From the NCBI RefSeq assembly GCF_000963965.1, contig NZ_BAMX01000014.1:186001-250000 (forward strand): a stretch of DNA of 64,000 nucleotides, given 5' to 3'. The stretch is from Acetobacter orientalis. GTDB lineage: Bacteria; Pseudomonadota; Alphaproteobacteria; Acetobacterales; Acetobacteraceae. A model generated the notes under the pieces. The model ran no database searches. It was not told where the DNA came from and saw nothing but the letters and a program-made list of their open reading frames with translations. This document shows, piece after piece, positions 1 through 14,220 of the stretch. A program made the position numbers and the translations under genes. How positions within the stretch are numbered: the first letter of the stretch is position 1; every line of letters starts with the position of its first letter.

Positions 1-276
1 GAATTTCACGGGCATCTCAGCATTGATGAGGTCGCTTCAGCCGTGGGGATTAGCCAATATCATCTCATGCGTAGTTTTCGTGCAGCAACCGGCCTGTCTG
101 TTCATCAATTCCTTACGCAAATCCGGCTCAATCACGCCAAGACACTGCTTGCCAAAGGTGTCAGTGCTGCGCAAACCGCTACAAGCGTTGGCTTTTATGA
201 CCAAAGCCACCTCATTAATCAGTTCCGCCGGTATTTCGGGGTTACGCCCAAACAGTATGCAACAACATCACGCTAG
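1..276 (+). CDS. AraC-family transcriptional regulator, C-terminal fragment (5' end outside window)
   Basis: The frame is open from base 1 to the TAG at 274–276 and gives about 91 residues. They form the two helix-turn-helix units of an AraC/XylS DNA-binding domain: the first around 'SIDEVASAVGIS', the second around 'ATSVGFYDQSHLINQFRR', ending in the typical 'FGVTPKQY'. The sensor domain lies upstream of the window, so the effector and targets cannot be inferred. A GTG at 43 is inside the first HTH and is not a credible start. It is convergent with metR. Confidence 0.9.
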   Translation, partial: EFHGHLSIDEVASAVGISQYHLMRSFRAATGLSVHQFLTQIRLNHAKTLLAKGVSAAQTATSVGFYDQSHLINQFRRYFGVTPKQYATTSR

Positions 277-433
277 GCTCGCCTTCAACATCTTTAGCTA
301 CCATTGCAGATGCTCTTGTTGAATAATAAGGCATTATTGCTCAATAAATGGCTTTTTAGGCCATATTAGCGAGACTTCGGATGCATTTTTGAATGAGAGA
401 AAGCGGCCGTTTTTACTGGCAGCAAATCATGCC

Positions 434-1327
434 CTATTTTCCAGATTGCGAAGCAAACATGATAAAATCTTCAAGATATTTAATGTCTTCATCCGTTTCT
501 CGATGACCAAGAAATATCTGTTTCGCAATGCCTTTTTTACCTAACCTCACCGGATAAAGTTCAAAACGTGAGGCATATTCTTCTACAAGCCAGCGCGGAA
601 GGGCTGCAATGCCCCGTCCATGGGTCACCATGACCACCATAATATCTGTTGTTTCAATCTGCTTTTGCTGGCGCGGCCCAATGCCTGCAGGTTGTAAAAA
701 TTGCGTATAAATATCAAGCCGTTCAGACGGCACGGGGTAGGTAATTAATGTTTCATCTGCCAGTTGCTCCGGCAAGACAAACTTTGCATTCCGAAGGGGG
801 TGTTCCGGGCCGACAGCCAACACCAGTTCATAATCGAATACGGGCGTAAATTTTAGGCCCGGTTTATAAAGTGGGTCAGGGGTAACCAGAATATCAATTT
901 CATTACTAAAGAGTGCGCCAATACCACCAAACTGGAATTTCTGCCGTACATCCACATCGACCTTCGGCCATCTTTCCAGATAAGGTGAAACGACTTTCAA
1001 AAGCCACTGGTAACAAGGGTGACACTCCATGCCAATACGCAGTGTACCGCGCCCGCCATTGGCAAATTGTTCAAGTCGGCTTTCCGCCAGTTCAAATTGC
1101 GGTAGCAGGCGGTTTGCCAAAGACAAAAGCCATTCACCAGCCTGGGTAAGGACAAGAGATCGTCCCTCCCGCCGCCATATTTTAACACCCAGCTGCTGTT
1201 CAATCTTGCGAATAGAATGGCTCAGCGCTGGCTGGGTCAGGTTTAGGCGTACCCCCGCAGCCGTGAGCGAGCCTTCTCGCGCAACTTCCCTAATAATCGT
1301 TAAATGACTGCGTTCCAGAATATCCAT
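434..1327 (-). CDS. metR: LysR-family regulator, MetR-like
   Basis: This 297-residue LysR-type regulator has an N-terminal winged HTH (residues about 1–60, 'SLTAAGVRLNLTQPALSHS') and a periplasmic-binding-like effector domain. The effector domain carries features I recognise from MetR: 'GMECHPCYQW' near residue 100 (E. coli has IECHSCIQWL), 'FDYELVLAVGPEHPL', 'YPVPSERLDIYTQFLQPAG' and 'GIAALPRW'. MetR uses homocysteine as co-effector and activates methionine genes. It is transcribed away from metF across a 212-base gap, the usual divergent LysR layout, and mesX–mesD lie 2.5 kb further on. The MetR assignment is strong by motif and context; its control of mesXD is inferred. Confidence 0.88.
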   Translation of the reverse strand: MDILERSHLTIIREVAREGSLTAAGVRLNLTQPALSHSIRKIEQQLGVKIWRREGRSLVLTQAGEWLLSLANRLLPQFELAESRLEQFANGGRGTLRIGMECHPCYQWLLKVVSPYLERWPKVDVDVRQKFQFGGIGALFSNEIDILVTPDPLYKPGLKFTPVFDYELVLAVGPEHPLRNAKFVLPEQLADETLITYPVPSERLDIYTQFLQPAGIGPRQQKQIETTDIMVVMVTHGRGIAALPRWLVEEYASRFELYPVRLGKKGIAKQIFLGHRETDEDIKYLEDFIMFASQSGK

Positions 1328-1362
1328 CTCTTGTCCAATAAATGCACAAAATTTATAGAGGC

Positions 1363-1393
1363 ATAAAAATATATCATTTCAGTTCATTTTTAT
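1363..1393. promoter_or_regulatory. Candidate LysR/MetR operator in the metR–metF gap
   Basis: An 8-bp perfect inverted repeat (ATAAAAAT at 1363–1370, ATTTTTAT at 1386–1393) has a 15-base spacer and lies just upstream of metR. Inside it, ATCATTTCAG (1373–1382) resembles the ATTATTTCAT arms found upstream of mesX. Position and symmetry suit a LysR-type site, but A/T-rich sequence makes such repeats common. Confidence 0.4.
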
Positions 1394-1437
1394 AAACGTC
1401 TATTATGAGAAACCAATCATTCCTGCGGACGCAGCCC

Positions 1438-1533
1438 ATGGCTTCAACGACATTCACGACTGTTTTCACTGTGGACTGCAATGTGGTGTCAATCTTTCTC
1501 CCGAGACTTTTAAGGAAAAATCTGACGCTGTGA
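1438..1533 (+). other. Short upstream reading frame preceding metF
   Basis: An ATG at 1438 opens a 31-codon frame ending at TGA 1531–1533. It is in the same frame as metF and ends 6 bases before the metF GTG. It could be a leader peptide coupled to metF or simply chance. The peptide is not methionine-rich and I recognise nothing in it. Confidence 0.2.
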
Positions 1534-1539
1534 GCGTTT

Positions 1540-2592
1540 GTGACTGACATGACAGGCATTCTGAGCAACTGGCTGTCGGAAATGCATATCGACGGACTGT
1601 TGTCGCGTAATTCCGAAGCCCCAATCCTATCCTTCGAGTTTGTTCCACCCCGAACTGATGCAATGGAACAGCGGCTCTGGCACTGCATCCGGCATCTAGC
1701 ACCGCTTGCGCCCCGCTTTGTCTCGGTCACCTATGGTGCTGGTGGAACCACGCAGACCGGCACTCTCTCCACGGTGTTGCGTCTGAAGCGGGAGACAGAC
1801 CTCATCCCCGCCGCCCACCTGACCTGTGTCGGTGCGACCCGCGAGGAGGTAGATGGCCTTGCCCGTTGCTATCGGGATGCTGGTGTGAATCATATCGTGG
1901 CTCTGCGTGGTGATCCTTGTGCAGGTTATAGTCCGCGACCGGGTGGCTATGCCTATGCCAGTGATCTTGTCGCCGGTCTGCGTCGTATCGCGGATTTCGA
2001 TATTTCGGTCGTCGCTTATCCCGAAACCCATCCTACAGCGTCAAGTCCGGACGCTGATCTGGATAATCTCAAGCGCAAGCTCGATGTGGGGGCCACCCGG
2101 GCCATCACGCAGTATTTCTTTGATAGTGAAATCTATCTGCGTTTTCTGGACCGATGTCTGGCGGCCGGAATTACTGCCCCTATTATTCCTGGTATTATGC
2201 CGGTTTCGAATTACGAGCAGATCGTGCGCTTCTCGGCTGTGTGTGGGGTAACGGTCCCGGCATGGCTGAGGCATCTGTTCGATGGGACTGCGAAGAATCC
2301 TGAACTTCGTCGTATCATCGCCTGTATGGTGGCGGTGGAACAGATCCGTACCTTGCAGACCTATGGACTGAACGAGTTTCATGTCTCCACCTTGAACCGC
2401 TCTGACCTGACTTACGCGATTGCCCATGTCCTTGGGGTGCGTCCAACGGAGACAAACGCATCTCATAATCTGACAGGCCTTTTGGAAACAACGGAAATCC
2501 CCCATGACCGAGAAACCCCGGCAGATTTTGACCCCACCGAAGGGACACAGGAAGGTGCTCCTCCATTCATGCTGCGCACCCTGTTCGGGTGA
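1540..2592 (+). CDS. metF: 5,10-methylenetetrahydrofolate reductase
   Basis: This is a FAD-dependent TIM-barrel enzyme that reduces 5,10-methylene-THF to 5-methyl-THF, the methyl donor for folate-dependent methionine synthases. Family motifs are present: 'SFEFVPP' at residues 31–37, where Glu33 matches the catalytic Glu28 of E. coli MetF, then '[11 protein letters not shown]', '[11 protein letters not shown]', 'ALRGDP', 'ITQYFFD' and 'PGIMPV'. The start is a GTG, with an alternative ATG at 1549; the ribosome-binding site is weak. At 350 residues it is about 45–50 longer than usual. The extra C-terminal tail is encoded by the 89 bases that overlap queH. The divergent neighbour is metR. Confidence 0.92.
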
Positions 2593-3163
2593 GGTGATGG
2601 AGGCCATGACCGCATCGGGTATCGACTATACGATCTTCTTCTACAATCCGAACATCCATCCTGAGCGGGAATATCTTCTCCGTAAGGACGAAAACATCCG
2701 GTTTGCCGATAAACATGGTATCCCCTTCGTCGATGCCGATTATGACAGAGACAACTGGTTCGCTCGTGCGAAAGGCATGGAATGGGAGCCGGAACGCGGT
2801 GTGCGTTGCACCATGTGCTTCGATATGCGCTTCGAACGTACAGCACTTTACGCTCATGAACATGGCTTCCCTGTGATGACCAGCTCACTCGGCATTTCAC
2901 GATGGAAGAACATGGCGCAGATCAATGACTGCGGCCAACGCGCCGTATCTCCTTATGAAGGACTCTCCTACTGGGATTTCAACTGGCGCAAAGGAGGTGG
3001 GTCCACGCGAATGATCGAGATCAGCAAACAGGAGAAGTTCTACCAGCAGGAATATTGCGGCTGCGCCTATTCCCTGCGTGATACCAATGCTCACCGCCGC
3101 AGTCAGGGGCGTTCGCCGATTGAGCTTGGCAAGCTCTATTATGGACCTGATGATGAGACCTAA
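2504..3163 (+). CDS. queH: Epoxyqueuosine reductase QueH
   Basis: QueH (DUF208) is the Fe-S enzyme that reduces epoxyqueuosine to queuosine in tRNA, a non-homologous alternative to QueG. Its cysteine motifs are intact: HSCCAPC (Cys23, Cys24, Cys27), CTMC (Cys102, Cys105) and CGC near residue 184. 'FYNPNIHP', '[10 protein letters not shown]' and 'INDCG' are also typical. It is 219 residues long. The first cysteine motif lies only 20 residues in, so the start must be at or very near the ATG at 2504, inside the 3' end of metF. Close similarity to Acinetobacter-type QueH is my recollection. It is probably co-transcribed with metF. Confidence 0.92.
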
Positions 3164-3356
3164 TCACACACAAGATGACGGAGCGTGTTCGTTCGGCGAA
3201 GTTCCACCCACCACCAGTGATAATAAACCACAGCACAAACCAGTTTTGAGATGTGATGAGCCGGAGGACTGCGTTCCAGATGAGGAAAGCCAGTTCGGTT
3301 GTCCGTGTTGTGTAAACCCGTGGTTCCGTTGATCCGGACAGAATACTGTTTGAACG

Positions 3357-3848
3357 GTGAAACGACCCATACATCATGCCCTTGTCAGAGATATTCTGCA
3401 TTATCTTCAGGCACCTGAACGTCTGCCTCTTTCAAAGGGCGAACGTCTGACGCGATTTGTGGATTTTCTTTCAGATCGTCACAAGACTATTGACTATCGA
3501 AAGCAGGAATGTCGGAAACGACTGCGTCGGTTCGAATATGTGCTAGACATGACTTGCCCTACGCAAAATAAGATGCGCGATATTGAAAAACTGATAACAA
3601 CGGCGGAAGAAATCTGCACGCGTCCTTTCACGCCAGCCACTGTTCAGGATGCACTGGGAATTTCCAGTCGGGAACGTATCCGGTGGACGCGTGACGGCAA
3701 GCTCAGGCCGATTGGAACGAAAATGATAAGGGATCGTGGGTGTTTCTCGCTGACTTTATACAGCGCGGAAGACGTAGCAAGACTGCTGATGTCTCCGGGA
3801 ATTATGGCATTGTGGAGAGCGAGACCTGCGTCCTGCCCTCCACAATGA
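3357..3848 (+). CDS. Hypothetical protein with a MerR-like HTH near the C-terminus
   Basis: This 163-residue protein starts at GTG 3357, 193 bases after queH. The N-terminal half is basic and helical and I do not recognise it. Residues about 90–140 ('TVQDALGISSRERIRWTRDG', then 'LYSAEDVARLL') look like the helix-turn-helix plus wing of MerR/excisionase-type DNA-binding proteins. It is convergent with mesD, only 19 bases apart. Function is unknown; a small DNA-binding protein is the best reading. Confidence 0.55.
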   Translation: MKRPIHHALVRDILHYLQAPERLPLSKGERLTRFVDFLSDRHKTIDYRKQECRKRLRRFEYVLDMTCPTQNKMRDIEKLITTAEEICTRPFTPATVQDALGISSRERIRWTRDGKLRPIGTKMIRDRGCFSLTLYSAEDVARLLMSPGIMALWRARPASCPPQ

Positions 3849-3867
3849 ACACCCGGCAAGCTGGCTA

Positions 3868-4896
3868 TTAGGCCGAAAGTTCTTTCCGAACGATTTCTGC
3901 CCCAGCACCTAAAGCATTCAGTTTGCCCCGCGCTACATCACGCGGCAACGGTGCCATGCCGCAATTGGTGCAGGGGTACAGCTTGTCGGCATCAACAAAC
4001 TGAAGCGCTTTTCGTAAAATATCGGCAACTTTCTCTGGTGTCTCTATGGTTTTAGTGGCCACATCAATGGCACCGACCATAACCTTTTTCCCACGAATGA
4101 GTTCTATTAAATCCATCGGAACGCGGGAGTTCTGACACTCCAGTGAAATCAGATCGATATTGGATTTTTGCAGTTTTGGAAAAATCTCTTCATACTGACG
4201 CCACTCTTCCCCAAGGGCATTTTTCCAGTCGATATTGGCTTTGATGCCATAACCATAACAGATATGAACTGCGGTTTCGCACTTTAGCCCTTCAATGGCC
4301 CGCTCCAGCGTGGCAATGCCCCAGTCATTGACCTCATCAAAGAAGACATTGAATGCGGGTTCATCGAACTGGATGATGTCGATACCGGCCGCTTCCAGTT
4401 CTTTCGCTTCCTGGTTGAGAATTTTGGCAAATTCCCAGGCGAGTTTTTCGCGGCTTTTGTAGTGACCATCATGGAGTGTGTCGATCATCGTCATGGGGCC
4501 GGGGAGCGCCCATTTGATAGGTTTCTTCGTCAGTGTGCGTAAAAACTTCGCGTCCTCGACAAAAACCGGTTTTTCGCGTGCTACAGCACCCACAACGGAC
4601 GGCACGCTCGCATCGTAGCGGTTGCGAATTTTAACCGTTTGACGGTTTTCGAAGTCGACACCACTGAGGTGCTCAATAAAGGTCGTGACGAAATGCTGGC
4701 GCGTTTGTTCACCATCGCTGACAATATCAATGCCAGCACGGTATTGATCGTCCAGTGTCAGGCGAAGGGCATCCTGTTTGCCCTCGACCAGTTCTTCCCC
4801 TTGCAATTTCCAAGGTGACCAGAGTGTCTCAGGCTGAGCAAGCCATGAGGGTTTGGGCAGACTACCTGCCGTTGAGGTAGGGAGCAGTGTTTTCAT
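3868..4896 (-). CDS. mesD: Folate-independent methionine synthase, MesD-like (MetE catalytic-domain protein)
   Basis: This 342-residue protein corresponds to the C-terminal catalytic half of cobalamin-independent MetE and lacks the folate-binding N-terminal half. The zinc ligands of MetE are all present: His211 and Cys213 ('VHICYGYG'), Glu253 ('ISLECQNS') and Cys312 ('CTNCGMAPL'). The 'FDEPAF' active-site segment is at about 177–182. The adjacent gene is MesX (DUF1852), 27 bases upstream on the same strand. That pairing defines the MesD family, shown genetically in Acinetobacter baylyi to make methionine without folate, needing MesX and oxygen, with the methyl donor unresolved. Zn site and pairing are seen; the exact subfamily is inferred. 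Confidence 0.85.
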   Translation of the reverse strand: MKTLLPTSTAGSLPKPSWLAQPETLWSPWKLQGEELVEGKQDALRLTLDDQYRAGIDIVSDGEQTRQHFVTTFIEHLSGVDFENRQTVKIRNRYDASVPSVVGAVAREKPVFVEDAKFLRTLTKKPIKWALPGPMTMIDTLHDGHYKSREKLAWEFAKILNQEAKELEAAGIDIIQFDEPAFNVFFDEVNDWGIATLERAIEGLKCETAVHICYGYGIKANIDWKNALGEEWRQYEEIFPKLQKSNIDLISLECQNSRVPMDLIELIRGKKVMVGAIDVATKTIETPEKVADILRKALQFVDADKLYPCTNCGMAPLPRDVARGKLNALGAGAEIVRKELSA

Positions 4897-4923
4897 AAGA
4901 AATAACCTTGTCTTTCTGAGAAC

Positions 4924-5922
4924 TTAAGCGGTGTAGCCGGCAGACCATTTTTCGAGAATATCATGGTAAGGCTTGATAAAATGCTCTTCCGTATAGTGCC
5001 CCTGTGAGGTCGCGAGTTGTGTACGTTCCTCACGGTCGTAGACAATGCGGGTATTGGAGTAATCCTGATGTTTCAAGCTCGGCTGGTAGCAGTCAGCCGC
5101 AGCAGCGTTGGCATTGTAAATTTCAGGACGGTAAACCTTCTGAAAAGACTCCATCACGCTGATGGTGCTGATCAGCTCAAGAGCAGAATAGTCAGACAAC
5201 AGGTCACCAAAAAAATAGAAAGCCAATGGTGCGGCACTATTACGCGGCATAAAATAACGAACCTGCATTCCCATTTTTTTAAAATACTGGTCTGTCAAAG
5301 AAAATTCACGCTGCTCATATTCAACGCCCAACACTGGGTGCTGATTTTCCGTCCGATGATATGTACGGTTGGTCGAGACACTCAGGCAAATAACAGGCAT
5401 TTTTTTGAAATTTTGCTTGTAATCTGTCGAGTTCAAAACACTTTTAAAGAGATTTCCATGTAGGTCTCCATAATTATGGGGCACACTGAATTCGGATTTC
5501 TCTTTATTGTAGTTGGGCAATAATACGCTAAAGTCGTAATCCCGCACATACGAGGAAAAACTGTTCCCTGCGAGGCCCGCTATGCGTTTGTTGGTGTTTT
5601 TATCAATAATTGTTGTGTAGAGAACTTCGATCAGAGGAAAGCTACCACTTTTGCCAGCAAAGGTGAGATCCATCTCGACAGAAACGATCTCAAGTTCAAG
5701 AGTGTAGCGATCTCCATTGGCATTATCCCAATGCGCTAAATCATTGAACCGATTGTCGATCATCCGCAAGACATTACGCAGGTTCTCCTGACGACTTTCC
5801 CCTCTCGCCAGATTGGCAAAATTGGTCGTAAGGCGGGTTCTGTCGGAAGGGTGATAGTTTTCATCGAAACGAAAGCGTTTTATTTTAAATATATTTTCCT
5901 TGATCATTGAAGCCTTCATCAT
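4924..5922 (-). CDS. mesX: MesX-like methionine synthase partner (DUF1852)
   Basis: This 332-residue protein is recognisable as DUF1852, the obligate partner of MesD. Recognisable stretches include 'FRFDENYHPSDRTRLTTNFA', 'NFANLARG', 'NDLAHWDNANGDRYTLELEI', 'HRTENQHPVLGVEY' and 'MGMQVRYFMPR'. Two possible starts exist: ATG 5922, or the internal ATG at 5907 (MIKENIFK). It is cytosolic with no signal peptide. Its biochemical role is not established; it is thought to supply or generate the methyl group or to activate MesD. It is markedly A/T-rich compared with most of the window. It leads the mesX–mesD operon, behind a 490-base upstream region with candidate operators. Confidence 0.85.
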   Translation of the reverse strand: MMKASMIKENIFKIKRFRFDENYHPSDRTRLTTNFANLARGESRQENLRNVLRMIDNRFNDLAHWDNANGDRYTLELEIVSVEMDLTFAGKSGSFPLIEVLYTTIIDKNTNKRIAGLAGNSFSSYVRDYDFSVLLPNYNKEKSEFSVPHNYGDLHGNLFKSVLNSTDYKQNFKKMPVICLSVSTNRTYHRTENQHPVLGVEYEQREFSLTDQYFKKMGMQVRYFMPRNSAAPLAFYFFGDLLSDYSALELISTISVMESFQKVYRPEIYNANAAAADCYQPSLKHQDYSNTRIVYDREERTQLATSQGHYTEEHFIKPYHDILEKWSAGYTA

Positions 5923-6414
5923 GTTTGCTGTTAAGAGCTATGCTTGGTATATGCCCGAGTGTTGGTTTGCAGAAAAATGATATTATTTCATTAATGCATA
6001 AATATAATTCATGGATTGGTGTGTTCAAAATTATATGAAATAATTGGGAAAGTTGATTTCAAAGAAAGATATAATGCAACATACATATAATTGATGTTGC
6101 CCTCTATTCTCTGATTGTATTTGGTCATAAGTTTTGAATATGTTTTGCGGCATTAAAGGCTTGGATGTATGGGGTGATAGTTAATAGGGTCGTTATCACG
6201 CTCCTGATAAATGAGGGCCCAAAGTAGTGTTGCAGTTTGGTCTCACACTTGCAGGGGAGGGGCGGTTACTGGGGCATGTATTGAGGGTAGGTCGTTGTTT
6301 TCATATAAGATGTATAGGTTTGAATTAGTCGGCCATTATTGCTGAGGTTGGAATGCTGCCATCACTCAGATATCAACTAGCAAGTAGGGCGATCGAAGGT
6401 AGAGGCGGGCAATA
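5923..6414. promoter_or_regulatory. A/T-rich intergenic control region upstream of mesX
   Basis: This gap of about 490 bases lies between divergent genes and contains no credible gene. It carries two 10-bp arms in inverted orientation, ATTATTTCAT at 5982–5991 and ATGAAATAAT at 6035–6044. The second sits inside a local palindrome (AATTAT, 5 bases, ATAATT at 6029–6045). This arrangement suits a LysR-type regulator. I looked for and did not see a recognisable SAM or cobalamin riboswitch core. Confidence 0.4.
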
Positions 6415-7488
6415 GTGCAGAAAAAATTGGTTAGCCTACAGGTAGCTCGTGGGTTGGCGGCCATGATGGTTTTTGTCATGCATCTTTTTAACATGGCAGC
6501 GGCAACCACGGCGTCTACATGGGCGGCAAAAATTGCGCAGGCTTTGCACTATGTTGGCCATATTGGCGTAGATATTTTTTTTGTTCTTAGTGGCGTTGTT
6601 ATGTGTTTGGTGCTGTCCCGCGCTGTTGCTTATGAGCAAACGGGCCGAGGGCGTATTGCTGTGGCGGCAGATTTTCTTGCGCGTAGAGCGGTGCGTATTT
6701 ATCCGTTGTATTGGATAACGCTTATAGCTTGTTTGCTTCTGCCTCCTATCCCAGGGGCGGATAATGCGCTTGGAACGCTTCTGCATCATCCGGCTTCGTT
6801 TTTCCTTTTTTCTAAACCGGCGGCGCATCCTGTTGCATGGACGCTCGTGTATGAGGTGCAATTTTATTGCGTGGCAGCGTTACTGCTTTTATTCGGTCAT
6901 TTTGCAAAAAAAGCTTTTTTAATTTGGTCGGTTTTGCAAATTTTTCTTGTTGTATGGTCTTGTGTTGGACTATTGCCGCACTGGCCTATTTTTGATCCGT
7001 TATCGCTTGAGTTTTCATTAGGTATTTTTGTGGGGTTGGTTAGCAAAATAAATTTTTATCGTATGGAATGCGTTGGTATGGCCGTGGCAATAGGTGCGGC
7101 TTGCTCAGCAAGTTTGTGGTGGGGGGGAGATGCAATAGCCGCCCACTCATACCTAAGAGTTATATTTTGGGGGCTGCCTGCAGCAGTGTTTATTGCCAGT
7201 CTTATGGCCTATGAGCGTACGCACACTTTGCAATACTCTTTTATGGCGCGGTTGGGTGACCTTTCTTATTCACTTTATATGTGGCACCCGATTGCCTTAC
7301 TTGTTCCGTTAGTGTTGTTGCAGCCATGGAATAAAGGAGGGAGTATAAAAATTACGCTCATTTATTGTATGCTAAGCATAGCACTGACTTTTATATTAAG
7401 TATTATAAGTTATCGTTATATTGAGAAACCGCTCAATGGATTATTTAAACATGTTCGAGATAGAAAGAGAATTTCCTCTCATCTGTAA
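6415..7488 (+). CDS. Acyltransferase family 3 membrane protein (OafA/YrhL-like)
   Basis: This 357-residue multi-pass inner-membrane protein belongs to the acyltransferase-3 family, whose members transfer acyl groups to sugars of O-antigen, exopolysaccharide or similar acceptors. Family signs are 'QVARGLAAMMVFVMH' with the conserved His at residue 22, 'GVDIFFVLSG', 'FLARRAVRIYPLYW' and the late 'YSLYMWHP'. About ten hydrophobic segments are visible. It ends in a basic tail without an SGNH domain. It starts at GTG 6415. It is A/T-rich and stands alone, so substrate and acceptor cannot be named. Foreign origin is possible. Confidence 0.85.
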   Translation: MQKKLVSLQVARGLAAMMVFVMHLFNMAAATTASTWAAKIAQALHYVGHIGVDIFFVLSGVVMCLVLSRAVAYEQTGRGRIAVAADFLARRAVRIYPLYWITLIACLLLPPIPGADNALGTLLHHPASFFLFSKPAAHPVAWTLVYEVQFYCVAALLLLFGHFAKKAFLIWSVLQIFLVVWSCVGLLPHWPIFDPLSLEFSLGIFVGLVSKINFYRMECVGMAVAIGAACSASLWWGGDAIAAHSYLRVIFWGLPAAVFIASLMAYERTHTLQYSFMARLGDLSYSLYMWHPIALLVPLVLLQPWNKGGSIKITLIYCMLSIALTFILSIISYRYIEKPLNGLFKHVRDRKRISSHL

Positions 7489-7552
7489 CCAATAGGCACG
7501 ATTGTATTGAGAACTAACTGTAGAAGGCTGACAACGGGTAAGCTGATGGATT

Positions 7553-8701
7553 TCATGCGGTTTTGGTCGGCGTGAAGCGTTTACCCCAATAGAGAACAAC
7601 AAGAGCAAGAAGGCCTAAGGCGCTACTCATTATAGGGAGAGAGTGTACCCCTATGGTAGAAAGAGCTGTACCGCCAAGCAAAGCCCCTGCGCCAACACCT
7701 GCATTAAAACCCGTGACACTGAATGAGCATGCAGCCTCACGCTCGCTTGGGGCAAGCTCCATGGCATAGCTTTGTGGTGCCATATTCAGTGCCGAGGCAG
7801 CCATACCCCACAGCACCATATTAACCCATACCATAACGGTAGAGTGCCCACATAAGAGCAGAAGGGTGTAGGTGGCAAGCAAACCCCAAACCGCAATCAT
7901 AATAACGCGAGACGCTCCCCACGGAGCACGCCCACTTAACCAGTTGCCTGCAATACCAGCGATACCGTACACCAATAGGAGAGAGGGAATAAGGGTTTGC
8001 GGACTATGCGTGACTTCTAGCAACAGAGGCACAACGTAAGTATAGGCCGTGAAATGCGCCATAACCAACACCATGGTAAGGCCTGCAATATAAAGAAATT
8101 TAGGCTCTTTAAGTAAAGGCCGAAGATCAAAATGCCTGCGTTGTGAGGGAAGGGACGGCAGCATAACGACCAAACCTGCACACACTAAAAGTGCAGCCAT
8201 ACCACAAAAAGCAAAGGCCATACGCCAGCCAAACCACTGCCCTATGGCGGAAATGAGGGGCACCCCAATAGCAAACCCCATAGCGACGCCCGTAAAAACC
8301 CAAGCTGCCGCTTTTGCAACTGGCATGTGTGGTGCCAGACGCACAGCAACACCAGCAACGGTTGACCAAAAAAGGCCGTGGCCAAAAGCTAGAGTAATAC
8401 GTAACAGTGCCATAACGGTAAAGTTACTTACAAAGGCAGAAAGAATATCAACCACACCAGCAAGCGCTAAGAGGCCGGCAATCATAATCCGCCTATCTAT
8501 GCCAGAGGTAAGGGCTGTGAGAGGAATAGCCGTAAGGGCAACAAGCCATGCATAGCCAGTAACCAATAGTCCAGCTTGCCCAGATGAGACACCTAAACCC
8601 TGTGCTATATCAGTCAGCAAACCAATAGGCATAACTTCTGTTACAAGCCAAATAAAGGAACCAATAGAAAGCATGGCAAGGCGCAGCATGGTCGGACTCA
8701 T
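7553..8701 (-). CDS. MFS transporter, SotB/DHA1-like efflux protein
   Basis: This 382-residue major facilitator has about 12 transmembrane segments. The pattern matches the DHA1 sugar or drug exporters related to E. coli SotB/AraJ: 'SFIWLVTEVMPIGLLTDIA' at the start, 'GYAWLVALTAIPLT', 'ALTSGIDRR' in loop 2–3, and 'GFNAGVGAGALLGG' near the C-terminus. These proteins export sugars or small compounds by proton antiport. It is a single gene convergent with the acyltransferase gene, and no adjacent regulator hints at the substrate. Confidence 0.85.
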   Translation of the reverse strand: MSPTMLRLAMLSIGSFIWLVTEVMPIGLLTDIAQGLGVSSGQAGLLVTGYAWLVALTAIPLTALTSGIDRRIMIAGLLALAGVVDILSAFVSNFTVMALLRITLAFGHGLFWSTVAGVAVRLAPHMPVAKAAAWVFTGVAMGFAIGVPLISAIGQWFGWRMAFAFCGMAALLVCAGLVVMLPSLPSQRRHFDLRPLLKEPKFLYIAGLTMVLVMAHFTAYTYVVPLLLEVTHSPQTLIPSLLLVYGIAGIAGNWLSGRAPWGASRVIMIAVWGLLATYTLLLLCGHSTVMVWVNMVLWGMAASALNMAPQSYAMELAPSEREAACSFSVTGFNAGVGAGALLGGTALSTIGVHSLPIMSSALGLLALVVLYWGKRFTPTKTA

Positions 8702-9016
8702 GATGGGGTGGGGTAAAATAAAAGCGTTTTAGAAACTTTTGCAGGCTGTAGCCTTACTGTGCAACGCAGGGAAGAGGGAATGAAAGCAGGAGTGAAGATT
8801 TTTGGGGGGTAAACACCATTAAAGATAAAGAGACTGTTACTACCTAGCTGGTTTTAGCGCCTGAGTGTGCGCTTATATACGTAAGAGGGGTAGGTTAAGC
8901 TGTGCTTTTGGTGCAAGGTCTATTTACCAAAGCTTTTCTTGGGTTAGTCTCTTTCTCTAAAATAGATGTTTCATTCCTGCAAAAGCTTATTGTAAGAGTA
9001 TTCTATAAAATTTGAT
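8702..9016. other. Intergenic region, no gene seen
   Basis: About 315 bases between the divergent MFS and lipoprotein genes. It is A/T-rich and must hold both promoters. I see no convincing RNA, repeat or short gene in it. Confidence 0.5.
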
Positions 9017-9028
9017 ATGAGGATATCG

Positions 9029-9595
9029 ATGAAAATAAATACGCACTCAGTCATTGGCATGGCCGCTCTTTTGTCTTTGGCGGCGTGTGCTGAAACGCCT
9101 ATGGGCCCTTCAGTGCAGATTTTACCGCCTCCGGGTAAAAATTATACCGTTTTTCAGCAAGAGCAGCAGTTCTGTCAGTCTCAGGCAGCGCAGGCGGTTA
9201 ATGGTCAAGCTGAACACCAAAACCACAAAGCTATTTACGGTGCGTTGGCGGCAACAGCTCTTGGGGCTGGGTTAGGTGCAGCCGCTGGTGGTGGTGCCGG
9301 TGCTGGCATTGGTGCTGCGGCTGGGGCATTAGGCGGTGGTGCTGGTGGGTCTTATTACTCACAAAGCCAGCAAGGCGGGCTTCAGACACAGTATGATAAT
9401 GCCTATGTGCAGTGCATGGTTGCGTACCATAACGTTTTGCCCGGTTATAATAACCCGGTGGCGCAAAGTGCTAGCCAGTCTGGTGTAAGGCATAAGGTGG
9501 TACACCGTGCCAACAAGGCGCAACCTCATACTGAAGCGGCACAGCCGGCGGCAACAACAGAGAAAAAGAGTGCAGCACCTATTGAGCTGGATTAA
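9029..9595 (+). CDS. Glycine-zipper lipoprotein
   Basis: This putative outer-membrane lipoprotein of 188 residues has a lipobox 'LSLAAC' with Cys about 20 residues in. A long Gly/Ala-rich glycine-zipper segment follows in the middle ('AGLGAAAGGGAGAGIGAAAG'), as in OmpA-like or SlyB-type envelope proteins. The tail is Ala/Gln-rich and probably disordered. The start at 9029 is preferred because GAGGA at 9019–9023 is well spaced; an in-frame ATG at 9017 lies inside that ribosome-binding site. A strong hairpin terminator follows. No specific function can be assigned; a role in envelope stability is typical of the class. Confidence 0.75.
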   Translation: MKINTHSVIGMAALLSLAACAETPMGPSVQILPPPGKNYTVFQQEQQFCQSQAAQAVNGQAEHQNHKAIYGALAATALGAGLGAAAGGGAGAGIGAAAGALGGGAGGSYYSQSQQGGLQTQYDNAYVQCMVAYHNVLPGYNNPVAQSASQSGVRHKVVHRANKAQPHTEAAQPAATTEKKSAAPIELD

Positions 9596-9618
9596 GCTTG
9601 GTGATCAGTGTGTAAAAT

Positions 9619-9651
9619 AAAAAACTGGCCGGTAAAGCGGCCAGTTTTTTT
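9619..9651. terminator. Bidirectional rho-independent terminator
   Basis: A hairpin CTGGCCG / CGGCCAG with a 6-base loop (9625–9644) is flanked by an A-run on the left and a T-run on the right. It can stop transcription both from the lipoprotein gene (+) and from the convergent gene ending at 9656 (-). Confidence 0.88.
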
Positions 9652-9655
9652 ATGG

Positions 9656-10906
9656 TTAGTTAGCCGTTACGCGAGCATCTGTGGCGGCGATAAAGCTGTT
9701 TAGGTCAAACAATGCTGGGCTAAGTGCAGGGTAACCAGCAAAGCCAGTATGCATAAGCGGTATAGGCTGTTGTGCCGTTATGCTTAAAGTGCCGCCTTGC
9801 TGCTCCCAACGGTTAAGAGGCGGCGCGTCTTTTGGAGCGACGGTGTCTACTTGCGGAAATGCTGTATCGGGCACAGCTTTTGCGCGTTTTACCAAACCTG
9901 CATTATCGAGCGTTAAAGAGGCTTTTTGTAACTCTACAGCATTGAGTTGGCTGCCTGTTTGCAACAGCATCATAATATTTTGTTCTGTAAAGCCGGTAGC
10001 AAGGGCCGCTAAGCTGGCTAAGGCTTGGGGGGGCACATGGTTAAGTGTAAAAGCCATGTTCCAGCCACCCATTTGGGTAAAATCAGAGCTTGATTTTACG
10101 CTTATACGGTCACCAGAGGTTTTATAAGAAAGCGCAATATCCCCCACGACAGAGGTGTAGCCTAGGCTTTGTAGTGCTAAGCCATTTATTGCGCCACCAG
10201 TGAAAGTAGAAACGTTATTAAGCGGGCAGTCTATACCCTGTGCGTCTATGCTCAAAGCCGGAGGAAGTGCTGTAGTAGACGATAGTCCATTGACTGAGAG
10301 CGAGGCAATTTTAAGAGAGGGTGTTGTCGTGCGAGAGAGAAAAACACGCACATCATGCAATGTGACAGACCCAAACGGAGAGGCACTAACAGAGTTGTAT
10401 TTGATATAAGAACTCAGCCCCGCCTGCCGTAATGCAGTTTGAATTTTATCATCTGCAATTTTGCTGGCTTCATAGTCTATAACGGCCCAGCCTAGCCCAA
10501 TAAACAAGACAACACCTGCGCCGCCTGCAAGAATAAGTTTGCGGTAGCGGCCCCACAGGCCTGCACGTTTAGCGGGGTCTGCCATGCTGGCTTTTACATC
10601 GCTCAGGGCATCTTCCCCATGATGTAAAACGGTGTTGGCGAGTTTACCAAATTGCTCTGCTGCGGCTTTGCTTGAGTCTTTCAAGCGTGGCCCATGCTCA
10701 GCCCATAAGGTGCCTGCTTGCTCCATAATATGTGCAACGCTTGCATCTGTTTGAGGGCTAAATGGCGTGCCTGTACTGGTAGCGGTGCTGGCGGTAGGGC
10801 CACCCCCTATGCCAGAAGGCGTTAACGTAGAAAGCGGAGGAAGCAGCAGGTTAGGATCCGGCTTCCCTTGCGCTAAAGGCGCTGTGTTATACGTGCCAGA
10901 CTGCAT
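9656..10906 (-). CDS. Unknown one-transmembrane envelope protein
   Basis: This 416-residue protein has a cytoplasmic-looking N-terminal 125 residues that are Pro/Thr/Ser-rich and then helical. One strong membrane segment follows near residues 129–150 ('LILAGGAGVVLFIGLGWAVI'). The remaining domain of about 265 residues has AsmA/DUF945-like character ('SPFGSVTLHDVRVF', 'GLVKRAKAVP'). I do not recognise a named family with certainty. It is the last gene of a leftward three-gene set, 12 bases after the DUF4282 gene, and ends at a strong bidirectional terminator. A role in the cell envelope is inferred only from topology. Confidence 0.7.
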   Translation of the reverse strand: MQSGTYNTAPLAQGKPDPNLLLPPLSTLTPSGIGGGPTASTATSTGTPFSPQTDASVAHIMEQAGTLWAEHGPRLKDSSKAAAEQFGKLANTVLHHGEDALSDVKASMADPAKRAGLWGRYRKLILAGGAGVVLFIGLGWAVIDYEASKIADDKIQTALRQAGLSSYIKYNSVSASPFGSVTLHDVRVFLSRTTTPSLKIASLSVNGLSSTTALPPALSIDAQGIDCPLNNVSTFTGGAINGLALQSLGYTSVVGDIALSYKTSGDRISVKSSSDFTQMGGWNMAFTLNHVPPQALASLAALATGFTEQNIMMLLQTGSQLNAVELQKASLTLDNAGLVKRAKAVPDTAFPQVDTVAPKDAPPLNRWEQQGGTLSITAQQPIPLMHTGFAGYPALSPALFDLNSFIAATDARVTAN

Positions 10907-10918
10907 GAGCCGAACCCT

Positions 10919-11254
10919 TTAGGATGCGGAAGAGGAAGATTTGGTTGCGTTTTCGCGCTGCCAAGCCAACTCATCACGGATCATGAACACAACAAGTGTG
11001 AGTTCGCTAGAAACGCGAGCTAGTACAATACCAACCAAGGTAACAATTAGTCCCACAATAAGGCCAAGGATAAGCCCACCAATGGCTCCAAGCGCTGAAG
11101 AGCTGCCTGAGGCTTGGGCAGCGGTAATGCAGCTTAGCAAAATGGAGAGGAAGGTGCCAAAACCGCTCAAAAAGCAGAAAAACACGCCGACATAGAAAAA
11201 GAATTTGATGAATTTTGGAGTAATGAGCGTGTCAAATGTCAGAAGAGATTTCAT
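10919..11254 (-). CDS. DUF4282 membrane protein
   Basis: A 111-residue protein with two membrane segments separated by a Gly-rich turn. It fits the DUF4282 family: 'LTFDTLITPKFIKFFFYVG' at the start, 'GLILGLIVGLIVTLVGIVLAR' in the middle, then 'RVSSELTLVVFMIRDELAW'. The start at 11254 (MKSLLTF) is chosen over an in-frame ATG at 11311 because the family begins there and an AGGA ribosome-binding site precedes it. DUF4282 function is unknown. It sits between two envelope genes on the same strand. Confidence 0.8.
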   Translation of the reverse strand: MKSLLTFDTLITPKFIKFFFYVGVFFCFLSGFGTFLSILLSCITAAQASGSSSALGAIGGLILGLIVGLIVTLVGIVLARVSSELTLVVFMIRDELAWQRENATKSSSSAS

Positions 11255-11338
11255 GAGTTTTATCCTGAACAAAAGAAGCGTTACGAGAACAAAGCCCTTC
11301 TGCACCAACACTGTTTGTGGCGCAGAAGAAAGTGAGGG

Positions 11339-12949
11339 TTAGTGCGTTGTTTGTGCTTGCAGTGCTGTGGCGAGTGCCTGCGGGTCTTCGGCATCTTTGC
11401 ATTGGTCTTGGGTGCAGGCATGTAAGGTTTGCACGGCCATTAAGGCGTCAGGGAAGTCTCCCTTACTAGGAACGCTCACTTGGCCTTGCACAATATACCA
11501 TGTGCCACTGGACAAAGCTGGCTGATCTTGTGGCACAGTGAGGGTGAGCTTGCCCGGCCATTTTGTTTCTACTTGTTTGCGGCCGCTACTGTCGGTTTGT
11601 ACAAGTAAAATGGCTGGTACTGGTTGATTGCGCAGGCTGGCGCTTGTGCGTACAGAGCGCATGGTATCCAAGCTGGGAAGGCCGTAGCCGTTATGGTCTT
11701 GGCCAACCCACATGGCGAGTTTTTCTGAGCGGTTTGCGCTTTGCACTCTTTCGCTCATCATACGGAGGTTTTCTGCGCGTTTCTGAGCAGCTTCCTTCGC
11801 TAGATGTGCGGCCTGTGCATCTGCTTGAGCTTTGCGCATGCCAGCAAGTGTTTCTGAACCAATGGTGCCGAGCAGCTCTTTACGGGCGTTGTCGTTGTAA
11901 ATTTTTACGCTGGTTAGCTCTGCTGGCACGATGTGAAAATCAGGCGTGTTGAGTTTAGCAAGCTCTGGCTCAGCTACGCTGAAAAACAGAGTAACCGGCA
12001 TATCACGGTTGATATAACCGTAGCGCGTGCGTTGCTTTAGAAATTGCTCGGCTTGTGCGCTGGGCATAGGGAGGGGGAATGAAAAATTATCCTCGCCTAG
12101 TTTAAACGAAACTTGGTTGGGGAGTTGGGCAGCCGAGAGATCACAGTTGCTAGAAAGGCTTAGCACACTGCCATCAAGCACAACGGGGAATGAGGACGTG
12201 TTAAAATCGTACTGACCCAAATTGAGCGTTAGGTCGGCGCGTAATTGGCCAGAGGCACTCTGGTGGCTTACGCGCTCAAGGTCTAGTTTGGCTTTATTGG
12301 CAACTTCGTGCTGACGGAAGTCATTACCGCGAGCATTGATATAATCTTGCTCAAAAAAATGTCTGGCCCAGCAGGTTTGTACGGCTTCATTACCAAGCAA
12401 TGCTGGGTTTTTCTGCACTAATAAAGCCAGTAGGCCCATATAACCATCAGGAATAGCTGGTGGTGGGGCTTCTGGCTGCGGTATTGGTGCCGCGCTTGGA
12501 GTGGTCGTGCTCTCTTGTGTAGGCACTTCTTGTGCTGCGTTGGTGGCAGGTGCGGCTTCTACAAACTTCCAGTTGTCCGAGCGCGTTGCGTGTAAACTAT
12601 GGGTTTGTGTCCCATTTTGCATAACGGCAAGGTCTACAGATTGAACATTGTTACAGCTGCTATCTGTTGAGAGTTTGCTGCCAAGGGCGTTAGCCAGATG
12701 GAGCTGCTGCTCTAGCGTATCAATTTCCTGACTCTGGGGCGTAATCTGCATTGTTAGGCGCAGGGTGGATGCCGCACATGCAGTGGTGGGGTCGGCAAAA
12801 TTGATCTCAACATTATGATGCTTGGAATGCGCAAACGTAGCAGTTTGGGCTATTGCTAAGGTGCTAACAACAGGCAAGAGCGCAATACTGGCGACACTGG
12901 CAAAAGCAAAACGACGCCACATTGGGGCAGAGTGCATGGTAAGTGGCAT
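11339..12949 (-). CDS. Exported protein of unknown function
   Basis: This 536-residue protein has a clear signal peptide (basic start 'MWRR', hydrophobic core, cleavage likely after 'LAIAQ'). A Pro/Ala/Thr-rich linker lies around residues 140–165. A globular region ends in a helical Ala/Glu-rich segment ('AHLAKEAAQKRAENLRMM', about 385–410), and a C-terminal domain holds a Cys pair ('HACTQDQC'). AGGAG precedes the ATG. I do not recognise the family securely. It leads the three-gene envelope operon; the gap to the DUF4282 gene is 84 bases. Confidence 0.7.
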   Translation of the reverse strand: MPLTMHSAPMWRRFAFASVASIALLPVVSTLAIAQTATFAHSKHHNVEINFADPTTACAASTLRLTMQITPQSQEIDTLEQQLHLANALGSKLSTDSSCNNVQSVDLAVMQNGTQTHSLHATRSDNWKFVEAAPATNAAQEVPTQESTTTPSAAPIPQPEAPPPAIPDGYMGLLALLVQKNPALLGNEAVQTCWARHFFEQDYINARGNDFRQHEVANKAKLDLERVSHQSASGQLRADLTLNLGQYDFNTSSFPVVLDGSVLSLSSNCDLSAAQLPNQVSFKLGEDNFSFPLPMPSAQAEQFLKQRTRYGYINRDMPVTLFFSVAEPELAKLNTPDFHIVPAELTSVKIYNDNARKELLGTIGSETLAGMRKAQADAQAAHLAKEAAQKRAENLRMMSERVQSANRSEKLAMWVGQDHNGYGLPSLDTMRSVRTSASLRNQPVPAILLVQTDSSGRKQVETKWPGKLTLTVPQDQPALSSGTWYIVQGQVSVPSKGDFPDALMAVQTLHACTQDQCKDAEDPQALATALQAQTTH

Positions 12950-13194
12950 CTATTACTCCTAATACTTTGTCTGTATTGTGTTAAAATAACCTAAAGGTGA
13001 GAAACGGTAGTAGCCTAATAAAATAATACACAAAATAAACTTGTTTCCTTCCATAACGCAGAAAATTTTCTCAGACAATATCCAAATGAATATCCTGTTG
13101 CAAAATTTTGAGTAAAGAGAAATAACAGGGTGCGTAAATTTTAGCACCCAAAGTGAGTAGTGGTATTTTTGTTGTTATATAAAAACGGAATGTT

Positions 13195-13974
13195 ATGAAT
13201 AAAGAAGTAAATGTAAATTTGAGCAGTTGTTTTTCCTTTAACGTAAATGGTATTGCTCAATGCCCTGTGTGCCGTAAAATAAAGGCACATTTCTTTTTTG
13301 AAAAAGAAGGCTACCCTATTTATAAGTGCCAAGGGTGTGATTTTCTTTTTACGCATCCATACCCAGATGATGCTACTTTAGCGCATCATTATGCCCATAA
13401 TTACCGGGGTGCCACAGCAGAATTCTACCCTAAAGCGGCAGACCGGCGGTGGCGTGGTTTTTGGCGTAGCTTGCCGTTTGCTCATTATGTAGCCCGTAAA
13501 GACGTGTTGGATATGGGGTGTGGTGGTGGCTTTATGGTAGAGGCTTTTGCACGCTTAGGGGCACGCGCGAGCGGTTTGGATATTAGTGAAAACAGTATTT
13601 CTTATGCACGTACCCGCTGGCCCCACTATAATTTTTATTGCGAAGATCCGGCTGCATTTAGAAAACGGAAGTTAACATTTGATTTCGTTTTTAGCTCTGA
13701 GGTGCTGGAGCATGTACCCGGCCCAGATGAATTTATGAAGACGCTGGCCGCTGTTACAAGACCCGGTGGCTTTGTTTATATTTCAGCACCAGATGCAGGG
13801 CACCCTGCTGTGCCACAAGACTGTGCTATGTGGCAGGACATTTGCCCACCAGAGCACCTGCAATGGTTTAACCATAATAATTTAGAGCTCTTGTTTGCGC
13901 AGTATGGTTTTAAGGTGCACCGTAAATATAAAAGTAAAAGTCCTGCACATTCAGTTATTTTCCAAAAAATATAA
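13195..13974 (+). CDS. SAM-dependent class I methyltransferase with N-terminal zinc-ribbon-like motif
   Basis: This 259-residue protein begins with two CxxC pairs, 'CPVCRK' (about 23–28) and 'CQGCDF' (about 45–50). This is the arrangement seen in methyltransferases encoded in sugar or surface-polysaccharide clusters. The Rossmann core follows: motif I 'VLDMGCGGGFMVEAF', 'GLDISENSISYAR', 'FVFSSEVLEHVP' and 'RPGGFVYISAPD'. The substrate is unknown. The surrounding DNA is A/T-rich and the gene stands alone between divergent and convergent neighbours. Confidence 0.85.
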   Translation: MNKEVNVNLSSCFSFNVNGIAQCPVCRKIKAHFFFEKEGYPIYKCQGCDFLFTHPYPDDATLAHHYAHNYRGATAEFYPKAADRRWRGFWRSLPFAHYVARKDVLDMGCGGGFMVEAFARLGARASGLDISENSISYARTRWPHYNFYCEDPAAFRKRKLTFDFVFSSEVLEHVPGPDEFMKTLAAVTRPGGFVYISAPDAGHPAVPQDCAMWQDICPPEHLQWFNHNNLELLFAQYGFKVHRKYKSKSPAHSVIFQKI

Positions 13975-14220
13975 CTCTGTGTGAGGGTGGAAGCAGTTAA
14001 AATTCATTTCGAAAATTTGGTCTGAAGTAAGGCTGAGCAGACATTGCTACAGTTATAGGGGCAGTATGTAGTATTTTTGAAGGAGATACGCTGTTAAAAA
14101 TGGTAATTAGATCCAGACAGCGATTTTTGAGCAGCCTCAAGGCTGAAAAGCGGTGGTTGGAGTGACCCATAATACGATAGGGTGAAATGTTAGGAGTTTT
14201 TTGAAATAGGTATTGTGATT

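Follow-up and report, generated by a model that had tools for sequence, protein, structure and literature searches.

The mesX-mesD genes of Acetobacter orientalis lie in a gene block that is probably a detachable cobalamin-bypass island

The MesD/MesX methionine synthase raises the question of where its methyl group comes from, a point left open in the main text of the founding paper (PMC7857596) and to which the parts of the later literature consulted gave no answer. In the window, that is, the whole 64,000-nucleotide stretch of Acetobacter orientalis DNA analyzed here, a mesX-mesD pair lies beside genes resembling metR, metF and queH, and the original prediction offered these neighbors as context for the missing donor. 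Do they point to the methyl source, or does the block follow another logic?

The gene mesX (4924-5922, minus strand) is the first of the pair and encodes a 332-residue protein, while mesD (3868-4896, minus strand, 342 residues) follows it after a gap of 27 bp. MesX matched PF08908 ("Putative oxygenase MesX", formerly DUF1852) with 584.9 bits over positions 1-323 of 323, and was 60-92% identical to 73 homologues. MesD was assigned from family models. It scored 694.9 bits against the NCBIfam model NF006589 ("methionine synthase", cut-off 392), which was equated with MesD through the best solved structure for the window protein, 3RPD (660.6 bits), called a MesD protein in the main text of Price et al. 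2021 (PMC7857596). The other eight NCBIfam models listed all remained under their cut-offs, NF003317 for instance at 230.3 bits against 406. PF01717 covered residues 5-328 of the 342, and no further Pfam family matched; therefore MesD has no folate domain. The zinc ligands His211, Cys213, Glu253 and Cys312 are all present. MesD thereby has the catalytic domain and the zinc site in common with MetE, but differs from it in the missing N-terminal folate domain and in its score against the MetE model (NF003556, 109.5 bits against a cut-off of 541). Chance is excluded for both identities because of these profile scores, and the presence in the window of the mesX-mesD pair of the Price et al. 2021 system is confirmed at the sequence level. 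The original prediction had described a MesD-MesX pair in an acetic-acid-type bacterium, composed of a MetE core with these four ligands and no folate domain and of a 332-residue DUF1852 protein, and this description was borne out in every part, with both reading frames in place.

Compared with the published system (PMC7857596, main text), the window pair is alike in the full-length matches of both proteins, in the adjacency of the genes and in the zinc ligands, and also in its co-occurrence with MetH, which was seen in 75% of the published cases. It differs in its queH-metF/metR block context, which was not found in that main text. The flavin reductase described there as an often neighboring gene of MesDX was not among the neighbors clustered from window positions 1-14000.

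Beyond mesD, the plus strand carries orf163 (3357-3848), which the original prediction did not list and which matches no Pfam or NCBIfam family, queH (2504-3163), which encodes a cobalamin-independent epoxyqueuosine reductase (PF02677, 216.5 bits, positions 1-174 of 175), and metF (1540-2592), which encodes a canonical methylenetetrahydrofolate reductase (MTHFR; PF02219, 280.1 bits; TIGR00676, 305.2 bits, above cut-off). Divergent from metF is a LysR regulator gene (434-1327, minus strand). Its product found its best NCBIfam model in MetR (NF011950), at 207.7 bits under the cut-off of 382, hence the label "MetR-like"; with this reservation, metR, metF and queH had been correctly named. The gene metF shares 89 bp with queH, and an overlap of identical length occurs in L035, L036, L037, L039 and L041. 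The arrangement recurs in loci of Komagataeibacter, Acetobacter, Gluconobacter, Neokomagataea, Ameyamaea and Novacetimonas, and in three further genomes of the genus. The full block of mesXD, queH, metF and the LysR gene was found in L035, L036, L037, L039, L041, L046 and L047, and also in L144, L146 and L148, with orf163 present to a varying degree in the blocks of these relatives. Among the 21 acetic-acid-bacterial mesX loci (L034-L053 and L058), 15 have at least 4.9 kb of sequence after mesD. In this region the LysR gene was present in all 15, metF in eight (plus a broken copy in L038) and queH in seven. What stays with mesXD in acetic acid bacteria is thus the regulator, while metF and queH can come away.

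Other features were also seen around these pairs. A divergent Rieske oxygenase gene lies about 2 kb upstream of mesX in L040, L041, L042, L045, L048, L149 and L151, the member from L048 having a VanA-type O-demethylase C-terminal domain. Moreover, mesX is split or fragmented in L058 (5992-6992), L145 and L033, with an intact mesD alongside in L058 and L033; the MesDX system is so being lost in places among acetic acid bacteria.

The block is best explained as a detachable cobalamin-bypass island, a reading that we consider probable. MesD and MesX would together convert homocysteine to methionine without folate and without vitamin B12. In this process MesD would hold homocysteine on zinc as a thiolate, while MesX, in an oxygen-dependent step, would provide the methyl group. 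The published parts of this scheme, as far as the sources consulted extend, are the requirement for MesD, MesX and O2 and the dispensability of MetF. In the block mesX-mesD-orf163-queH-metF with its divergent metR-like gene, MesDX would stand in for the B12-dependent MetH and QueH for the B12-dependent QueG. The LysR/MetR-like protein would act on mesXD through conserved promoter dyads, and metF would be a separable passenger, more likely feeding MetH (or being the relic of a metE-type locus) than feeding MesD.

QueG is cobalamin-dependent and QueH is its cobalamin-independent counterpart, according to the portion of PMC10378866 consulted. The window protein belongs with QueH by its PF02677 match, but its setting differs, as the gene overlaps metF in a methionine block and the same host genome also keeps queG, adjoining queA and tgt. 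Among 49 genomes of the genus, MesX was found in 31 and QueH in nine, all nine of them MesX-positive (Fisher test, p = 0.018, a value that partly reflects linkage and, like all Fisher tests here, ignores relatedness); queH lies about 1.9 kb from mesX in seven of the nine. The phylum was represented by 398 evenly sampled genomes, and QueH was counted in them above cut-off (one genome below it, G351, being left out); MesX occurred in 44 genomes, QueH in 32 and both in 16. QueH was thus present in 16 of the 44 genomes with MesX against 16 of the 354 without it (p = 5.6e-9, relatedness ignored), and only once did a QueH without MesX come from the same family (G365). In 14 of the 16 double-positive genomes the two genes were either separated by 43 kb or more or located on separate contigs, so linkage does not explain the co-occurrence across the phylum. 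With QueH the counterpart of the B12-dependent QueG as MesDX is of MetH, the presence of queH would be explained by B12 independence. Its product, put forward earlier as part of the donor context, is more readily understood as another substitute enzyme that needs no B12.

The same data bear on a simpler account, in which the locus is an ordinary neighborhood: a plain MesDX pair with no shared logic among its neighbors, the pattern reflecting common descent and the horizontal exchange of genes among acetic acid bacteria. The high identities within these bacteria agree with it, as do the Acetobacter plasmids that have mesXD without queH and the large share of MesX-positive genomes in which QueH is missing (22 of 31 in the genus, 28 of 44 in the phylum sample). 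That share, the plasmids lacking queH and the 16 genomes with QueH but no MesX also weigh against the bypass reading. We nevertheless consider the ordinary-neighborhood account unlikely, as most of the co-occurring pairs in the phylum sample are unlinked, queH is a near neighbor of mesXD in other lineages (two of three Acinetobacter loci, L057 and L059, and L104), and one genome of the genus, G041, keeps queH and the LysR gene while queG and metH were not found in it.

This genome, apparently that of Acetobacter sp. AN02 (L026/L052), has MesX, MesD and QueH. It gave zero hits for MetH, the MetE N-domain, QueG, CbiC and MTHFR, at 99% completeness and in about 190 contigs. The absence of MTHFR is the weakest of these negatives because divergent MTHFRs score near the limit: the folD-linked type reaches about 18-28 bits, which makes "no MTHFR" a weaker statement than "no canonical MetF", and PF02219 gave no hit whatever in eight of the 49 genomes of the genus. 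In G041, queH and a LysR gene with 84% identity to that of the window are divergently arranged with no metF between them, and the queH-lysR gap (L142) keeps part of the metR-metF intergenic sequence. Such a gene set is what a bypass-reliant lineage would look like.

The host of the window is different in its gene content. Its genome (2.9 Mb, 100% complete) has one MetE-type catalytic domain, which is the MesD described here, and the MetE folate domain (Meth_synt_1) had no match in it. A full-length MetH frame is present, the TAG inside the match being the terminal stop of MetH, and MesDX is therefore an additional, not the sole, methionine synthase of this bacterium. CbiC, a marker of B12 synthesis, was also detected, and the host seems able to make B12. 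With MetH, QueG and CbiC all present, a lack of B12 is therefore no obvious driver, which counts against the bypass reading. Kept beside MetH and QueG, the bypass may help when cobalt runs short or when B12 enzymes are inactivated, and not in B12 auxotrophy. According to the part of PMC13059711 consulted, inhibition by N2O appears to be evaded by two strains that carry MesD. A simple B12-lack hypothesis was also tried at the level of the genus and found no support: MesX was not enriched where CbiC is missing (5/31 MesX-positive versus 5/18 MesX-negative genomes, p = 0.46).

Turning to metF, the block could instead have arisen when mesXD took the place of metE in a methionine locus, next to an ancestral metF-metR pair, MetF making the one-carbon donor for MesD/MesX directly or indirectly and queH being incidental. 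This would agree with metF belonging to the block. MesX and MetE are indeed mutually exclusive in the genus (MetE in 0/31 genomes with MesX versus 4/18 without, p = 0.014), all four MetE-positive genomes have canonical MetF (p = 0.014), and in three of the four metF lies within about 2.5 kb of metE. Canonical MetF, however, was missing from 19 of the 31 MesX-positive genomes of the genus and showed no association with MesX (12/31 versus 6/18, p = 0.77), while it was present in eight of the nine QueH-positive genomes (p = 0.0007). MetF tracks QueH, not MesX; its gene thus travels with the block that contains queH and is no partner of MesX. The host has a second MTHFR, which is divergent (249 residues, PF02219 at 24.9 bits) and whose gene overlaps folD by four bases (L140:1857-3511). 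Similar weak PF02219 hits are widespread in the genus. This divergent folD-linked type may be the usual MTHFR of the genus, and it may serve many of the 19 MesX-positive genomes without canonical metF. Furthermore, metF is broken beside an intact mesXD in Gluconobacter wancherniae (L038), and published MesD/MesX genetics in E. coli and Sphingomonas, in the parts of these sources consulted, which include work with S. koreensis genes, had already found that MesD does not need metF. With metF dispensable in the published work, unassociated with MesX in the genus, broken in L038 and undetected in G041, a replacement of metE with MetF as the source of the donor is improbable. The suggestion that metR, metF and queH offer context for the donor was not sustained on these grounds.

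The search for a donor enzyme was extended by clustering the neighbors of 70 mesXD loci and the window. The ORFs were thinned by overlap, which cost five of the 71 sources even their mesX ORF, so the neighbor counts given here are minimum values. The gene context of these loci brought no donor enzyme to the fore, and nothing in the block of the window points to the methyl donor. Flavin/FMN reductase clusters were seen near mesXD in at least five and at least three loci, and were not turned into a donor candidate. Outside the acetic acid bacteria, a TauE/SafE-type exporter gene (PF01925, as determined by a scan of the L135 member) lies within 4 kb of mesX in at least 16 of 49 loci, of which L060 and L135 are from the same organism (L054, L055, L056, L057, L059, L060, L099, L102, L103, L106, L111, L118, L127, L129, L130 and L135). 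Its side and strand vary relative to mesX. No mention of this neighbor was found when the main text of PMC7857596 (Price et al.) was consulted, and it may hint at an anionic by-product. As for the block itself, the neighboring metF and queH should not be taken for donor clues.

Alignment of the mesX upstream regions revealed the conserved dyads CATGAA..ATG and ATGAAATAATATCAT (5975-6013, minus strand), a predicted LysR/MetR-type operator upstream of mesX. The 15-mer ATGAAWTNAWATCAT was found without mismatch in 19 of the 21 acetic-acid-bacterial loci (L034-L053, L058), the exceptions being AN02 with one mismatch and L058, where mesX is split, with four. Of further acetic-acid-bacterial loci, L143, L144, L146 and L148 had zero mismatches, L031 two and L145, with its mesX fragment, six; in other families the 15-mer occurred with at most one mismatch in eight of 49 loci, two of which are from the same organism. 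These dyad scores leave out L004-L025, L027-L030, L032, L033 and L061-L090. The 39-base dyad pattern, which was read off an alignment that included the window, was found once in the window and in 0 of 100 shuffles (at most two mismatches). A related core, TGAACTGAAATGATAT, is conserved in the divergent metR-metF intergenic region (1328-1539); it was exact in 10 of 12 such regions and had one difference in the other two. The MetR consensus TGAA-N5-TTCA had no perfect match in either promoter, with one-mismatch sites at 1444, 5978 and 5999, and it was not enriched in the window (21 matches with at most one mismatch versus 20.2 expected). No riboswitch was detected, as Rfam gave no match up to E 1 in window positions 1-12000. 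The constant LysR neighbor and the conserved dyads suggest MetR-type control, with the LysR/MetR-like protein probably acting on mesXD at these predicted sites. According to the portion of PMC12892962 consulted, repression by B12 lowers mesX expression in Acinetobacter baumannii by about 8 log2 units, which fits the view of a MetR-type, bypass regulation.

As regards MesX itself, its oxygenase activity, flavin use and methyl delivery are predictions put forward by Price et al. (PMC7857596, main text), and the word "oxygenase" is a prediction from genetics. The AlphaFold model of the window protein had a mean pLDDT of 83.6 and a pTM of 0.84. Foldseek found no match of this model in the PDB at E <= 0.001 (423 at E <= 10). 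When it was compared with 994 chains by VIA-align, the best Z was 3.7 (137 residues, 4.9 Å), and the best 50 of the 994 were largely acetyltransferase, SMC-head and MHC chains. Sequence search found no MesX relatives in the PDB either (best E 0.15). His195 is present in all of 74 MesX sequences and His155 in 73 of them; a metal site formed by these two residues is possible.

Mobility of the genes was observed at several levels. The arrangement in L104 (4594-12467) resembles a composite transposon. There a LysR gene, mesX, a gene for an FMN reductase, mesD and a shortened queH are flanked on both sides by DDE transposase genes; these two are oppositely oriented and are identical to each other over 933 bp. 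None of the 37 matched plasmid records had most of the block of the window. Three Acetobacter plasmids (L149, L150 and L151) carry mesXD with a LysR gene, and neither queH nor metF within 9 kb; many transposase genes lie near mesX on them. Overall, mesX was seen on 209 plasmid records (Pantoea 71, Acetobacter 15, Acinetobacter 28, and others). QueH is also common on plasmids for its own part, with 248 records that are mainly from other groups, Klebsiella and Escherichia being the most frequent. Both this spread of QueH and the lack of a plasmid record with most of the block weigh against the bypass reading. QueH proteins up to about 80% identical to that of the window are frequent on Klebsiella plasmids (99 of the 248 records; hits H51-H90).

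The mesX-mesD cassette itself is known, and its gene context is the new part. This context suggests a reserve set of genes for B12-free operation, not a pointer to the methyl source. The locus supplies a rule for the presence of queH, namely B12 independence, and predicts a regulator together with its site. More tentatively, a mobile, MetR-type-regulated module might exist in which substitutes for two unrelated B12 enzymes, one of methionine synthesis and one of tRNA queuosine formation, are co-inherited and at times co-transferred (L104), and through which some bacteria, such as the AN02-like genome, could have given up the B12-dependent enzymes, the making of B12 and perhaps that of 5-methyl-THF. 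If this is true, such bacteria would be natural hosts for finding the methyl donor of MesX, and G041, with no detected MetH, MetE, QueG, CbiC or MTHFR, is a clean test organism for it.
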